Assembly (NCBI GenBank): GCA_019747795.1
Contig: JAIEQK010000089.1
Location: 1 to 57,673, forward strand
DNA length: 57,673 nucleotides
Direction of reading: 5' to 3'
From: Gammaproteobacteria bacterium
GTDB lineage: Bacteria > Pseudomonadota > Gammaproteobacteria > Ga0077536
The notes under the pieces: model-generated
The model's database searches: none
What the model was told of the DNA's origin: nothing
Seen by the model: only the letters and a program-made list of their open reading frames with translations
Shown: in pieces, positions 39,745-54,541 of the stretch
Layout: each line of letters opens with the position of its first letter
Position numbering within the stretch: position 1 is the stretch's first letter
Program-made: the position numbers and the translations under genes

Positions 39745-41289
39745 GTGAACACTCCCCAACCAGATTTCGCGGGCACCTCGGTCGAGTTGGACCGACTGCT
39801 ATTGGAGCGAGACTTCTACTTGAAGCTGCTTAACTTGGGTGGCTGCGACGATCCCGATGTGTTCCTCCGCGAAGCGCTCTCGCTGATCTCGGGCCTAACG
39901 GGCGCCGAGAAATCCTACATCGAATTGCGCAGCACAAACGAGGGTGAGGACGATGTGTGCCATCTGCAGTTCGGCCTTTCAGAAGAAGAACTCAGCGCTG
40001 TGCAGAATCAGATTTCTACCGGGATCATTGCCGAGGCACTCGCCACCGGCCAAACCATCGTCACACCGGCAGCGCTACTGGATCCGCGCTTCAGCCAGTT
40101 CGACAGTGTGCAGCTCGGAAGAATTGGCGCGGTCATCTGTGCCCAAATAGGCCCCTCCGACCGTCTCGGCGTACTTTATCTCCATACGACTCGCAATGGC
40201 CATACGTTTTCCGATGCGGATCGCAAGCCCGTCGAGCTTTTTGCCCGGCACCTCGCGCCGCTGGCCGAGCGCCTGCTCTCACGTCTGGCGCTTCGCAAGA
40301 CCGATGATCCCACCGCGCAGTACCGCAAGCAACTGCGCGCCGATGACCTGATTGGCCGCAGCCATGCGTTAGCGAGTGTCCTGCACGAGGTCTCGCTCAT
40401 CGCGCCACTCGAACTCAGCGTGCTTATCACGGGCCCCACCGGCACCGGCAAATCCCAGCTGGCCGAGATCATCCACAACAGCAGCCGTCGCAGCGGCGGG
40501 CCCTTCGTGGTCGTGAATTGTGCGACGCTTCCGCCTGCGCTGGCTGAGAGCGAACTGTTCGGCTACGAACGGGGGGCTCATTCGACGGCTGTGAAGGACA
40601 AGCACGGCAAGCTCCAGGCAGCAGCCGGTGGCACGCTTTTTCTCGACGAGATCGCAGAACTGCCGCTTGAGTCCCAGGCAAAGCTGCTCCACGTGCTGCA
40701 GAACAAGACTTATTTTCCCCTGGGCGGGACCACGCCACGGACCACCGATGCCCGTATCATCGCGGCCACCAACGTGTCGCTGCAGGCCCACGTCCGGGAC
40801 GGACGTTTCCGTGAGGACCTGTTTTTCCGACTGAACGTCATGCCCATCGAGCTGCCGCCGCTAGCGCAGCGGGTGGAAGACATAGCTGAACTCGCTGAGG
40901 GCTTGGTAAGGCGCATCTGCGAGGCCAACCACTTTCCCGAACTACGCTTGGCGCGGGACGCGCTAGTTTCGCTGCGTCATGCCGAATGGCCAGGCAATGT
41001 GCGCGAACTCGAGAACACGCTGACTCGCGCTTGTATGCGCGCCGCTGCGCAGGGCGGCGCCGCGATTCGCACCGGGCACCTTTTTCCAGAGCGAGGCGCG
41101 GATACCCGGGCATGCCCGACCTGGAGTGAAGCGACGCGTGCCTTTCAGAGGCAGCTACTGCTCGGCGCTCTCACTGAGAATGACTGGAACGTCGCGCGAG
41201 CGGCACGCCAGCTCGATCTGGCCCGTCCCTATGTTCACAGCTTGATTGCAGGGTTCGGCATTGAGAAGCCCAATCATGGCTCTAACTAA
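39745..41289 (+). CDS. NtrC-type AAA+ regulator with GAF domain and aberrant GAFTGA loop
   Basis: A 514-residue bacterial enhancer-binding-protein-like regulator. A GAF-like sensory domain covers about residues 30-180; the AAA+ domain has Walker A GPTGTGKS (230-237) and Walker B GGTLFLDEI (Asp301, Glu302), with R-finger region EDLFFRLN; a Fis-type helix-turn-helix ends the protein. The loop that should read GAFTGA and touch sigma-54 reads GAHSTA (277-282). It starts with a GTG at 39745. It overlaps the convergent carboxymuconolactone-decarboxylase-like gene by 8 bp. It could still act with sigma-54, or through another polymerase; the strong sigma-54 promoter at 52.35 kb is its obvious possible target. 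Confidence 0.9.
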   Translation: MNTPQPDFAGTSVELDRLLLERDFYLKLLNLGGCDDPDVFLREALSLISGLTGAEKSYIELRSTNEGEDDVCHLQFGLSEEELSAVQNQISTGIIAEALATGQTIVTPAALLDPRFSQFDSVQLGRIGAVICAQIGPSDRLGVLYLHTTRNGHTFSDADRKPVELFARHLAPLAERLLSRLALRKTDDPTAQYRKQLRADDLIGRSHALASVLHEVSLIAPLELSVLITGPTGTGKSQLAEIIHNSSRRSGGPFVVVNCATLPPALAESELFGYERGAHSTAVKDKHGKLQAAAGGTLFLDEIAELPLESQAKLLHVLQNKTYFPLGGTTPRTTDARIIAATNVSLQAHVRDGRFREDLFFRLNVMPIELPPLAQRVEDIAELAEGLVRRICEANHFPELRLARDALVSLRHAEWPGNVRELENTLTRACMRAAAQGGAAIRTGHLFPERGADTRACPTWSEATRAFQRQLLLGALTENDWNVARAARQLDLARPYVHSLIAGFGIEKPNHGSN

Positions 41290-46444: not shown

Positions 46445-47299
46445 CTAACGGGGCGCCGGTGCCTTACAGAAGGTAAGGCAATAAAAGTATCGACTCACAG
46501 CGAAGTGATTCATGAGTACGGCACCGGCCGGCAGTAGTTCCAGCGGCGCCTTGGTAATACGATCAAAGAAGGTCAAAGCCCGGAATACCAGCTTGTGCGC
46601 CAAGCAATTCCAGCGGTCGGTATCCAGCTCCTCGTCGACCACAACGATTGGTGCCCCCGGCTTCGCTACCCGCATCATCTCACGTAGACCGAGCATGGGG
46701 TCTCGGTATGCGTTGATGCTGCCGACGTTCAAAACGCAGTCGAAGCTGTTGTCTGCGAACGGTAGGCAGTGGGCGTCCGCGTAGGCGAAGCGCAGCCGCC
46801 GTGTCGCGTGCGCGGCGCCGCGCACCGCCGCCCCCAGCATTTTCTGATTGATGTCCACTCCCCAGTATCCCAGCTTCGCGGGATCACCCGCTGCGTGGTA
46901 GATGAGTGGGATGTTCGCTCCGCTGCCCACGCCGACCTCGAGTACCCGAGCGGCGGCCCGGTTCCCCATGTCTTCCACACCTAGTTCAGCGATGTACTTC
47001 ATGCGATCGATGGGACCACTCGGGTACTCCAGCCAGGGCAGGACGTGATCCACCGCAGCATCGTGAAACGGCGCGATTAGGTCGTAGACGATGTCGACCA
47101 CTTGTTCCCGCTTGCCCAGCGCTTGCGCGTCGAATAGATGAGGCACGCTCTTCTTGACGCGCCATGCATGGTTCAGATCGCATTTGAGCACGCCATTCAG
47201 CGCGACCTCGTCATCTCGAGACGCACCTTCGAAAACCAACCGATGCTGGCATCGAGGACAGCGAAGCATGCTCCGATCTTTAGAATCCAAGCCAATCAC
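46445..47299 (-). CDS. SAM-dependent methyltransferase with N-terminal zinc-finger-like motif
   Basis: A 284-residue class I methyltransferase. The SAM site is VLEVGVGSGANIPLI, followed by GVDINQKML, DAHCLPFADNSFDCVLNVGS and the LREMMRVAKPGAPIVVVDEE strand. The N-terminus has C-P-R-C ... C-D-L-N-H, resembling the RlmA-type zinc site or Trm112-like segment. It starts at a GTG overlapping the stop of the giant kinase gene, so it is coupled to it, and is convergent with the lipid operon. The substrate could be a small molecule or lipid; an rRNA target is less likely given the context. Confidence 0.88.
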   Translation of the reverse strand: MIGLDSKDRSMLRCPRCQHRLVFEGASRDDEVALNGVLKCDLNHAWRVKKSVPHLFDAQALGKREQVVDIVYDLIAPFHDAAVDHVLPWLEYPSGPIDRMKYIAELGVEDMGNRAAARVLEVGVGSGANIPLIYHAAGDPAKLGYWGVDINQKMLGAAVRGAAHATRRLRFAYADAHCLPFADNSFDCVLNVGSINAYRDPMLGLREMMRVAKPGAPIVVVDEELDTDRWNCLAHKLVFRALTFFDRITKAPLELLPAGAVLMNHFAVSRYFYCLTFCKAPAPR

Positions 47300-50754: not shown

Positions 50755-50778
50755 CCTGATCCTGTGGGCTCAAGGCGA

Positions 50779-50809
50779 AGTATAGACCAAGCCAAGGAGT
50801 CCTCGCCAA
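50779..50809 (-). promoter_or_regulatory. Possible sigma-70 promoter of the kinase gene
   Basis: On the minus strand, TATACT (50784-50779) is preceded by TTGGCG (50809-50804) with a 19-bp spacer. It lies 25 bp upstream of the kinase ATG at 50754. The -10 is good, the spacer long, so confidence is modest. The 171-bp gap after the CRP gene allows independent transcription of kinase and methyltransferase. Confidence 0.35.
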
Positions 50810-50925
50810 GCCAGGGCTGTCGCATCCAGACCGGCGCCCGCCCCGGTTGCCGCGGCACCAGGCGGTCACCAAGGGTCGCGTACGGTTGACCCGCTTCGTG
50901 CGAACGTTAGTCGGAAGCCTCCCCC

Positions 50926-51636
50926 TCAGCCGTTGCGTGCCTCGTCGACTAGCCTGCCCAAGGCAGCGTAGTCGCGGATGATCCACGCGTCTCGGCGTGA
51001 GCAATCGAGCAGCCCCAGCCGCCGCAGGTGCGAGATCTCGCGTGACACGGCTTCCCGGTGAGTTGCCACGCGCGCGGCTACATCCGCGTGACGTGGAGGC
51101 CGAGCAATAATAGCTGCCTCGCTGACCTCGGAAACAGGCTTGGCGAGTCGATACAGCTCCGTTCGAACGCGTCCGCGCACACTCATGGTGGAGAACTCGA
51201 TCGCCCGATCGCTGAGAGCCCGCACCAGCGACGTCAGCTTGCGCAGTAGCCGCCACCGCAGCACTGAGTTGCTGTCGATCAGGACATGAAACGCGGCGGA
51301 TGACATACCCGCGACCAGGGTATCCGTGGTCGCAGTGACGCGTGCGGAGCGATCATGATGATCTATCGACGCAATCTCGCCGAACATGTCTCCGGGTCCA
51401 AGTTCGCGAAAAGCGATTACTTTGGCGTCGTGTCCATAGCAGGCTACGCTCACGTAGCCGCTTACCAGCCAGTACACGCCGTCATCGCAGTCTTGTTCCA
51501 TGAGAATGGCAGTCGAGGCCGCGTACCGGTATCCGCGCAATCGATTTGCGAGTGCCTCGAGTTCCGCGAGCTGTAGGCCTGCGAAGAACGGAATGGAGTT
51601 CAATGTCGCCACGCAGATCTTGACGTTTCTCTTCAT
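50926..51636 (-). CDS. CRP/FNR-family transcriptional regulator with cAMP-type binding residues
   Basis: A 236-residue CRP-like protein. The nucleotide-binding loop FGEIASIDHHDRSARV retains Glu87, Arg96 and Ser97, the residues that hold the ribose and phosphate in E. coli CRP, so it probably binds cAMP or cGMP. The C-terminal helix-turn-helix (about 183-205) reads VATHREAVSREISHL, with R-E-x2-S-R as in CRP (R-E-T-V-G-R), suggesting TGTGA-type half-sites. No FNR cysteines. The ATG overlaps the stop of the cyclase-like gene (ATGA), so both are made together. Confidence 0.92.
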   Translation of the reverse strand: MKRNVKICVATLNSIPFFAGLQLAELEALANRLRGYRYAASTAILMEQDCDDGVYWLVSGYVSVACYGHDAKVIAFRELGPGDMFGEIASIDHHDRSARVTATTDTLVAGMSSAAFHVLIDSNSVLRWRLLRKLTSLVRALSDRAIEFSTMSVRGRVRTELYRLAKPVSEVSEAAIIARPPRHADVAARVATHREAVSREISHLRRLGLLDCSRRDAWIIRDYAALGRLVDEARNG

Positions 51637-52295
51637 GCCCGCAGCTCCTCTTGATGATCGAACTCTTGGTCGGTGATGCCATTGGATGGCTTTTCGGTTG
51701 CGCTGCGAAGCCGCAGTGGCACGGGGCCGTGATGTCTTGGGCTCACCTCCGGACTGGATGCAGATGTAGGATCCGGCACTAACCTTGCGAACCGGACTGG
51801 GTGCTCTATGCCCTTCAGATGGGTTTCCGCCTCCGCATCACAGAGCTGCGCCCGTTGTGCCGGCAAGTTGGCGAGAACCTCGGCTGACACCACTATCTGT
51901 CCGGGCATCGCCAGATCACACAGACGGAACGCGAGAATCACGTTCAGGCCGAAGATGCGATCGGCCAGCTCGCATAGCGGCCCTACATGAATTGCTGTTC
52001 GCAACGCCAATTGGTGCCGAACTAACAATCTGTCGCGCTCCACCAGACGGTGGACGGCACAGGACGCCACCACAGCGGCATCGGCCGTTGGGAACGTGAA
52101 CAGCGCCCCGTCACCTCGGGCTTCCCAAGCACGTCCGCCGAAGAGCCGTACGACCCGCGCAGTGATGCGGGCGGTGCGGTGCATGACTTGCAGCGCTACT
52201 TCGTCACCGAGGCGAGTGGTCAGAGCGGTGAACCTAGCGACGTCGATGCAGACGACGGCGCTAGTGGCGACTTTGTAGGCGAGCGTGGTATTCAT
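51633..52295 (-). CDS. Class III nucleotidyl-cyclase-like protein with altered catalytic residues
   Basis: A 220-residue cytoplasmic protein consisting of a cyclase homology domain and a Pro/Ser-rich tail of about 45 residues. Both metal Asp are present (Asp18 in VCIDVARF, Asp62 in ARGDGALF). The purine-selecting position before the second Asp is Glu58, as in guanylyl cyclases, not the Lys of adenylyl cyclases. The transition-state Asn of the V-N-x-A-x-R motif is Ile120, although Arg124 is kept. It may therefore be a weak cyclase or a nucleotide sensor. ATG 52295 has GGGGA upstream; the sigma-54 promoter lies 38 bp before it. Coupled to the CRP gene by ATGA. Confidence 0.85.
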   Translation of the reverse strand: MNTTLAYKVATSAVVCIDVARFTALTTRLGDEVALQVMHRTARITARVVRLFGGRAWEARGDGALFTFPTADAAVVASCAVHRLVERDRLLVRHQLALRTAIHVGPLCELADRIFGLNVILAFRLCDLAMPGQIVVSAEVLANLPAQRAQLCDAEAETHLKGIEHPVRFARLVPDPTSASSPEVSPRHHGPVPLRLRSATEKPSNGITDQEFDHQEELRA

Positions 52296-52342
52296 AGTGT
52301 GGCGTTCCCCAGGACTTATGACTAAAGTCACCCGCCCAAGAG

Positions 52343-52358
52343 AGCAAACGACGTGCCA
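52343..52358 (-). promoter_or_regulatory. Near-consensus sigma-54 (-24/-12) promoter of the cyclase-CRP operon
   Basis: The minus strand reads TGGCACGTCGTTTGCT from 52358 to 52343, which agrees with TGGCACG-N4-TTGC(A/T) at every conserved base. The GG and GC are 10 bases apart. Transcription should start near 52333, giving a 38-base leader with a GGGGA ribosome site before ATG 52295. Confidence 0.85.
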
Positions 52359-52374
52359 GGGTCGGGCCTCGACG

Positions 52375-52390
52375 AATCAAACGCTTGATT
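52375..52390. promoter_or_regulatory. IHF consensus on both strands
   Basis: AATCAA-ACGC-TTGATT matches the IHF consensus WATCAA-N4-TTR perfectly when read on either strand. Its centre is about 50 bp upstream of the predicted sigma-54 start, between the -24 box and the upstream dyad, the usual place for a bending site. Confidence 0.65.
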
Positions 52391-52447
52391 GCACACGCTG
52401 TTAGATTTTTCTGCGCACAGCCAGCGACCCGTCAGAATTTCCTTACG

Positions 52448-52462
52448 GTGCGAGAAGCGCAC
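52448..52462. promoter_or_regulatory. Dyad upstream of the sigma-54 promoter, possible enhancer
   Basis: GTGCG-AGAAG-CGCAC is a perfect 5+5 inverted repeat centred about 120 bp upstream of the predicted start, a typical distance for an enhancer-binding protein. A related GCGCACA word also occurs at 52413-52419 and 52457-52463, 44 bp apart. The binding protein is not known. Confidence 0.45.
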
Positions 52463-52939
52463 ACCGAGCGAGCTTTGTCGGAATCCGATGTCCAGCTCTC
52501 CATCCGCGCTGCTCAAGCCATCACCATGAGTGGCATCCGGTGTGAGATTCCACCAGGGACGTGCGCCGAGTGAGCGGTGGCAAAGTGTGACGACGTAGCT
52601 GGCGAGTGGCGTGGGCGGAGGATTGAGGGGCGACGAGGCCGAAGTTCGGGCGCTGGCAGGCACCCAGCACCGTGCTTTCGAACTCGGGAGACGGTTCGGT
52701 ACGTTCATGTGTTTCCGCCTAAATCCGCCCCTCTGCGCGGATGGCGATGCGCGGAACGGGCACGTTGCACGTGACGTTCCTCACCGTGGCACTGCGAGGT
52801 ATAGGCGGCCAGCATTGCCCTAACCATGCCTGCGGATACTGCGTCAGTGCCTGACCGTCGAGTCGACGTGCAGGAAAACTCGCTCGTCCTACGTCACGCT
52901 CGACAGGCCGGTGATACCTCGACCGCGTACGTGTGCTTG
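52463..52939. other. About 480 bp without a recognisable gene
   Basis: Between the upstream dyad and the outer-membrane-factor pseudogene I see no intact gene. A 126-codon minus-strand frame (52328-52708) is open but covers the sigma-54 promoter, IHF site and dyad, which argues against it being a gene. The right part may contain the decayed 5' end of the pseudogene. Confidence 0.5.
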
Positions 52940-53770
52940 GCCCACGAGCGCGTCGAAGCACCGGGCTGCTCGCCGGGAGTGCCGGCGACTTCGGGCGCGG
53001 CTTGTCCTTTAGCGACACGAACGTCAACGCGAGTTGGGAACTGGATTTCTTCGGTTGGCGCCGCCGCGAGCGCTAGGCTGCACCGGCCGGGGTCGAAGCA
53101 AGCGAAACGAGCGCTGTGGCCGTCCGCCTCGGCGTCGCGGCGCAGACCGCCAAAACCTACGTGCTTATCCGCGGGCTGCAGGGACGGCGGGCCATGGCGC
53201 GCGAGCGGACGGCCGGGGAAGGTCGTCTGCTCAACATTGTCAGGCGACAGGACGTAGCCGGCGTGGCTGCCAAACTGCAGTCGCGGCGAGCCGGGAGCCT
53301 CGTGCATCAGACCGAGTCGACGGTCCCCGCCCTCGAGTCGGCGCTCCGGGCGGCACAGAATGCGGTCGAGATCGGACTCGGCGCGTAGCCTGGCGCCCAC
53401 CACCCGGAACTGCTCGTCGCCGGCACTGTGCCTGTTGCGCCGGACATCGAGAATGCCGGCGGACCCACTCCGCCATCTCGGAGTACTACCCGAAGATCTC
53501 GCTGAAGAGTCCGATCGGTACCGCGACCACCGCCTTTGGCGACGCCTTCTCGGGCGACGCCAACCATACCCAGGCCGGGGCCGGTCTGGGCTGGCGCCTG
53601 TTCGACTTCGCGTACGTCGACGCCAAGAATACCGCAGGCCGTGGCCGCTACGTTGAGGCGCTGGCCGCCCACAAGCTCGCGGTGCTGCAGTTATTCAACA
53701 ACGTGGAGAACGCGCTCACGGCGCTGCTGCGGGGCGAACGACAGGAGCGTAGCGGGCTCATCCGCGACGT
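52940..53770 (+). pseudogene. Decayed copy of the NodT-type outer-membrane efflux gene
   Basis: Translated pieces match the intact protein at 35794-37323 in order: DFGRGLS, ASWELDFFGWRRRER, AVRLGVAAQTAKTYVLIRGLQ, ESALRAAQNAVEIGLGA, AISEYYPKISL, GWRLFDFA, LAAHKLAVLQ. The frame is broken by a frameshift near 52980, in-frame stops TAG at 53074-53076 and 53386-53388, and a deletion near 53475 removing about 27 codons. The 5' end including the signal peptide is not recognisable. A 27-bp run at 53479-53505 is identical to 36752-36778. Ends are approximate. Confidence 0.9.
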
Positions 53771-53945
53771 CGCAGGCTTCGCCGCGTACGCCAGGAGTCT
53801 CGCTCTCCAACGGCCTGAGTCGCTCGGCATCGCACGCCAGCATGGCAATGCGGCAGCCTCCGCGGCGAAGCGTCGCGCGGCAGCGGCGCCCGTCTCAGAG
53901 CTGACGCCCGTGCTCAGCACCAGAGGCACGGACGCGCTGATGCCG

Positions 53946-54541
53946 CAACCCCCAGTGCATGCTCCTTGGCGAAATCGAAACGATCCGCGCCGAAGAAGAT
54001 GTCTTGTTCGATCCTGAAGAACGGCACCCGGAACACGCCGGCCTAGATGGCGGCCGCATTAGCCTCATCCAGCGCCGCTTCCATATCGGGCTGCGCGGCG
54101 AGGGGGATCACGTCCTGGCCTGGCAGGCCGAGGGACTTCATGAGCGCCTCGCTGGCCTCGCGGGTTGCCACGCTCCGCGAACGCGCCGAGGACGCATCGA
54201 GAATTGCGACATGGAAGCCGGCAGAGTGGTCGAAGGCTTGCGCGGCCAGCGAAGCGCGCGCGAGAAAGTGCAGATTGGTCGTCCCCGCCTACAGCACGGA
54301 CCAGCCCCCCGCATTCGCCATCAGCGGCACTCCGTGGCGCTTCGCTCACCGCGCGGTGTCGGCATGGGCGTGACGAAGCCTGGCCGGGCGCTTGGGCGAC
54401 GGATGGTTAGCGACCGCGTTCATCACATCGAGAATCGGGATGGCTTGTACACGACGAAGAGCCCGGACCGTGGCAATTGAGTATCTGCCAGGGACGCGTA
54501 GGGGCTGACTAGTCGAAATAGAGCTTGACGGGTTTGCTCAT
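53946..54541 (-). pseudogene. Decayed DsbA-family/2-hydroxychromene-2-carboxylate-isomerase-like gene
   Basis: The minus strand opens with MSKPVKLYFD then a TAG at 54511-54509; shifting the frame restores VSPYASLAD, the family's standard N-terminus. Further on one frame reads LMKSLGLPGQDVIPLAAQPDMEAALDEA, then a TAG at 54045-54043, then AGVFRVPFFRIEQDIFFGADRFDF, the typical C-terminus. Several frameshifts lie between. The family contains glutathione-dependent isomerases used in aromatic breakdown. The original start has GGAG and overlaps the end of a preceding frame. Confidence 0.85.

Follow-up and report, generated by a model that had tools for sequence, protein, structure and literature searches.

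A probable sigma-54 promoter with an IHF core in front of a cyclase-CRP operon in a gammaproteobacterial contig

The stretch from 52343 to 52390 of contig JAIEQK010000089.1 is best read as a working sigma-54 (RpoN) promoter from which a cyclase-crp operon is transcribed leftward, and a probability of roughly 0.8 is assigned to this reading, which is drawn from sequence comparison. Throughout, the window is the whole stretch of DNA analysed, 57,673 nucleotides in length; its relevant features are collected in Table 1. The promoter is probably real, if ordinary in kind, because an exact -24/-12 match is found in a combination with an IHF core that is unique in the genome, and because the host encodes RpoN, IhfA, IhfB and canonical activators. 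An earlier note on this DNA had proposed an enhancer-dependent promoter here. This proposal is supported by the exact core, the IHF core at -58 to -43, the host machinery, the lack of a sigma-70-like site in the region searched and an upstream stretch that looks non-coding. The coordinates and distances that the note gave for its three elements (core, IHF site and upstream dyad) are also right.

Table 1. Coordinates of the predicted promoter elements and of the genes discussed, numbered on the forward strand of the window
Feature	Position	Strand	Remarks
-24/-12 element	52358-52343	-	TGGCACGTCGTTTGCT = TGGCACG-TCGT-TTGCT; GG 52357-52356, GC 52345-52344
Predicted +1	52332 (within about 2 bp)	-	placed from the -12 position (C at -12 = 52344)
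IHF core palindrome AATCAAgcgtTTGATT	52390-52375	both strands	at -58..-43
AT-rich stretch AAAAATCTAA	52410-52401	-	exactly 10 bp from the IHF core, 5′ side
Candidate enhancer CGGTGCG-AGAAG-CGCACACCG	52446-52466		about -134..-114
Inner dyad GTGCG-N5-CGCAC	52462-52448		inside the candidate enhancer 52446-52466
Dyad TGACTTTAGTCA	52319-52330		+3..+14, inside GGTGACTTTAGTCATA
Class III nucleotide cyclase, 220 aa, first gene	51633-52295	-	Ma1120 chain 5d0g, E 6.5e-16
CRP/FNR-family regulator	50926-51636	-	start overlaps the cyclase stop codon
Ser/Thr kinase with AAA domain, 1152 aa	47296-50754	-	171 bp after crp
Class I methyltransferase	46445-47299	-	overlaps the kinase gene
P0003, GAF-AAA-Fis regulator	39745-41289	+	GAHSTA in place of GAFTGA

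The minus-strand sequence 5′ of the cyclase gene is gaaaaatctaacagcgtgtgcAATCAAgcgtTTGATTcgtcgaggcccgaccCTGGCACGtcgtTTGCTctcttgggcggg. In it, TGGCACG-N4-TTGCT matches all consensus positions of a -24/-12 element, with the invariant GG and GC at standard spacing, so that the earlier claim of a core with all conserved bases is confirmed by an exact match. This is the sole site with no mismatch in the window, and it also takes the top rank when the window is scanned with a weighted -24/-12 model. The same weighted scan gives no sigma-54-like site before the patatin, kinase or P0003 regulator genes. From the predicted start, a leader of 37 nt would run on the correct strand to the cyclase ATG at 52295, and GGGGA is found ten bases 5′ of this ATG. 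The leader RNA yields no sign of structure (z-score 0.14). The region from 52296 to 52470 has a GC content of 56.6%, against 66% in the window. An ORF at 52328-52708 that overlaps the promoter was considered as a gene and rejected, as it lacks the low second-position GC that is typical of the genes in the window. Farther upstream, 53034-54017 contains what seem to be frameshifted fragments of an outer-membrane efflux protein gene, with a weak Pfam OEP match and a codon pattern that is not coding-like.

The earlier note had also described a two-sided perfect IHF consensus 17-32 bp upstream of the core, and it is indeed present: AATCAAGCGTTTGATT (52390-52375) matches the IHF core WATCAANNNNTTR on both strands, and the match is two-sided simply because the site is a 6+6 palindrome. 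Nowhere else in the window is the IHF core matched, and the site lies 17 bp upstream of the -24/-12 element. The spacing of the neighbouring AT-rich stretch is that expected of a lambda H′-type IHF site.

Taken alone, the -24/-12 consensus is hardly above the genome-wide background. In pattern searches over the 5.94 Mb of the genome, exact sites number 5, against 2 in the control, and a second pattern gives 8 against 4. Consequently, the evidential weight lies in the combination of elements and in their position. Some of the other exact sites are at sensible positions. For instance, one precedes an apparent permease gene (the first 120 aa of which have no Pfam match) that is divergent from a periplasmic binding-protein gene, and another precedes a gene with a PPDK_N domain that adjoins an activator. 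Two of the five exact sites, by contrast, have no evident gene start behind them. This, together with the near-background rate of the consensus, is what speaks for a coincidental arrangement, in which the operon would be read from a housekeeping or ECF promoter. Nevertheless, such a coincidence is highly improbable. With the window and the upstream region described by Markov models, 0.02-0.04 exact -24/-12 elements are expected per window and 4e-4 to 2e-3 IHF cores within 150 bp upstream of one, so that the joint expectation is only about 1e-5 to 7e-5 per window. A genome-wide pattern search also argues against chance: a looser gapped pattern (IHF core, 8-38 bp, TGGC-N7-TTGC), although composed with knowledge of the site, is found a single time in the genome, at this site, and never in the reversed control. 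Moreover, no sigma-70-like promoter was found in a search of 52200-53100.

Another alternative keeps the -24/-12 element functional and takes AATCAAgcgtTTGATT as the operator of an unrelated dimeric regulator instead of an IHF site. It is unlikely, if not to be dismissed lightly, because IHF sites are usually less symmetric than a perfect 6+6 palindrome. On the other hand, the operator of a regulon should recur, and no second exact copy of AATCAAgcgtTTGATT is found in the 5.94 Mb genome. In addition, an IHF site is consistent with where the palindrome lies, between the -24 element and the upstream region, and with the AT-rich stretch 10 bp from it.

The host is equipped for the sigma-54 reading. 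Its genome encodes one RpoN, with the RpoN box ARRTVAKYRE intact, as well as IhfA and IhfB, both of which score above curated cut-offs. Strong sigma-54 activator domains are found in 13 proteins. Eight of these carry GAFTGA or GSFTGA as contact loop, one has GAYTGA, one GAFTHA and the window's own has GAHSTA, while the loop of L073 is not recognisable and the tally is made without a read for L072. With these components, E-sigma-54 would form a closed complex on the -24/-12 element and start at about 52332, and IHF would bend the DNA at -58 to -43. The bend would then let an AAA+ activator that is bound farther upstream, perhaps at the dyad at -134 to -114, reach and open the polymerase. Promoter activity, the start site, IHF binding and the position of the enhancer are all features that we infer from the DNA.

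The two dyads add little to this picture. The 5+5 dyad that the earlier note placed about 120 bp upstream is present, and its reading as an enhancer is indistinguishable from chance. In effect, such dyads are expected 0.9-1.2 times per 100 bp, which makes the upstream one weak evidence, and matches to its sequence with at most one mismatch are fewer in the window than chance would give. The dyad at the predicted start lies in GGTGACTTTAGTCATA, which fits 8 of the 10 positions of a CRP-type site. It is a weak candidate because shuffled sequences equal its score in 17% of trials; a possible role would be to allow the operon's CRP protein to autoregulate its own promoter. Among nine CRP relatives, one (L043) has a site with 9 of 10 positions and the other eight have at most 7. 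The recognition helix of this relative is very similar (ATHREAISREL), and AGTGAGAAAAATCACA is found upstream of its gene, which may be a hint to the target sequence of this CRP subgroup.

As regards the operon itself, its first gene product falls below the Pfam cut-off; the cyclase label of the earlier note is nevertheless right at the level of the fold (class III). Between crp and the kinase gene, a gap of 171 bp (50755-50925) contains a TATACT hexamer, which may point to a separate promoter for the kinase. Thus, kinase and methyltransferase may either be co-transcribed with cyclase and crp or be read separately. An orthologous operon was found neither in 58 relatives nor in 369 genomes of the class. 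Likewise, a cyclase search of the contigs of close relatives gave no match, and the closest CRP relatives have no adjoining cyclase gene. A narrow full-text literature search returned no paper in which a sigma-54 promoter is paired with a cyclase-CRP operon.

The protein that would open this promoter is more likely one of the GAFTGA-type regulators of the genome than the neighbouring P0003. The earlier note had regarded the latter, an NtrC-type regulator encoded 11 kb away, as the natural activator, a suggestion that fares poorly, as GAHSTA replaces the GAFTGA loop that contacts sigma-54. P0003 has a GAF domain, a sigma-54 activation AAA+ domain with Walker motifs and a Fis-type HTH, and its best NCBIfam models, NorR and NifA, are both below cut-off. 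In PspF, the contact loop has been tied to contact with the closed complex (PMC4132715). According to Francke et al. (PMC3162934), working loops replace F3 by Y only, T4 by S, and G5 by D (putatively also by E, A, H, N or S). The H at F3 and the T at G5 of P0003 are outside these accepted changes and would place it in the inactive class (PMC3162934). Thus, P0003 is probably not a normal sigma-54 activator.

The GAHSTA loop is, as far as sequence comparison can tell, a family trait and not the result of random decay. The closest relative of P0003 found, with 51% identity and from the same taxonomic family (L085), also has GAHSTA. When 84,980 species genomes were scanned with a DNA pattern in which the H and the second T were fixed and the fourth position was partly open (W-S-N codons), 104 stretches were obtained, 80 of them readable (family loci L121-L200); the fourth loop position was S in all activators recovered in this way. 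Walker A is found beside the loop in 75 of 81 proteins, the window's own included, and the sigma-54 activation domain is matched by all 51 aligned members, the majority of which carry GAF and Fis-type domains as well. A tree built from AAA domains contains a split (support 0.80) that places 74 of 74 GAHSTA proteins together with a single one of 35 canonical activators. The named sources are mostly Myxococcota or "Deltaproteobacteria", with some Planctomycetota and Binatia. A search of the available literature for "GAHSTA" returned no paper, and the family is apparently both large and undescribed.

Could P0003 activate the promoter after all, by contacting sigma-54 through its variant loop? This is quite unlikely, and the role of P0003 as activator is doubtful. 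Still, several observations favor it. P0003 is encoded in the same gene cluster, its family retains the other AAA+ motifs, and rpoN is present in 47 of 50 genomes with a GAHSTA member; the three genomes that lack it may be incomplete. Moreover, the gene of a family member often has one for a Ser/Thr kinase directly after it, and such a kinase is encoded downstream of crp here. Of 77 loci, 31 have a kinase gene in the surrounding stretch examined, a raw count that has no matched background; in 15 of these 31 it lies on the same strand as the family gene and downstream of it, in most cases no more than 200 bp away. Since this kinase-linked family meets a kinase encoded in the same presumed operon, P0003 is an interesting candidate. 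Furthermore, regulon inference in Desulfovibrio points to continued function on sigma-54 promoters for an activator whose loop, GVATGV, is strongly altered (PMC4641369), and the GAFTGA rule is therefore not absolute. Against P0003 stands that very rule, by which F3 tolerates only Y and a change of G5 to T is not accepted (PMC3162934). Likewise, no sigma-54 signature and no common dyad are seen upstream of P0003 and its relatives: a search for an operator shared upstream of the GAHSTA genes gave none above shuffles. For the GAHSTA loci as a whole, -24/-12 elements with at most one mismatch number 15, against 3 in the control, in a comparison that is not matched for background. The broader proposal, in which P0003 opens the promoter, GAHSTA proteins are kinase-linked sigma-54 activators, and cyclase, CRP and perhaps the kinase are under their control, is very unlikely.

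The main reading, of an IHF-assisted promoter opened by a canonical activator, would make this an ordinary and unusually clean example of its kind. Sigma-54 control of the cyclase and CRP genes would place a cyclic-nucleotide regulator under the command of another regulator. If, instead, P0003 were to open the promoter, it would contact sigma-54 via a loop hitherto classed as inactive. In that sense, whether GAHSTA proteins function on sigma-54 bears on the rule used to divide thousands of proteins into sigma-54 activators and non-activators.

Several known systems resemble parts of this arrangement. P0003 has the same domains as the NorR- and NifA-like GAF-AAA-Fis activators, but with GAHSTA where these have GAFTGA. 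TyrR, DhaR and HupR, activator homologues that act with sigma-70 (PMC3162934), are likewise activator-like AAA+ proteins whose contact loop is altered. Unlike in these proteins, the altered loop of P0003 is itself fixed across a large family. The first gene product of the operon shares its fold with Ma1120, a class III adenylyl cyclase from Mycobacterium avium (PDB 5d0g, 4wp9), with which it aligns at both metal aspartates and at the Asn/Arg pair. In the substrate pocket, however, K, D and A of wild-type Ma1120 are replaced by E, R and F in the operon cyclase; a second Ma1120 chain in the alignment has E, G and Y at these positions, a design that converted the enzyme into a guanylyl cyclase. 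The product of the operon cyclase may thus be other than cAMP. Finally, the promoter itself resembles the IHF-assisted sigma-54 promoters of the nifH, glnH and Pu type, with which it shares a -24/-12 element, an IHF core that separates this element from the upstream region, and similar distances. What it would control, in contrast, is a cyclase-CRP operon.
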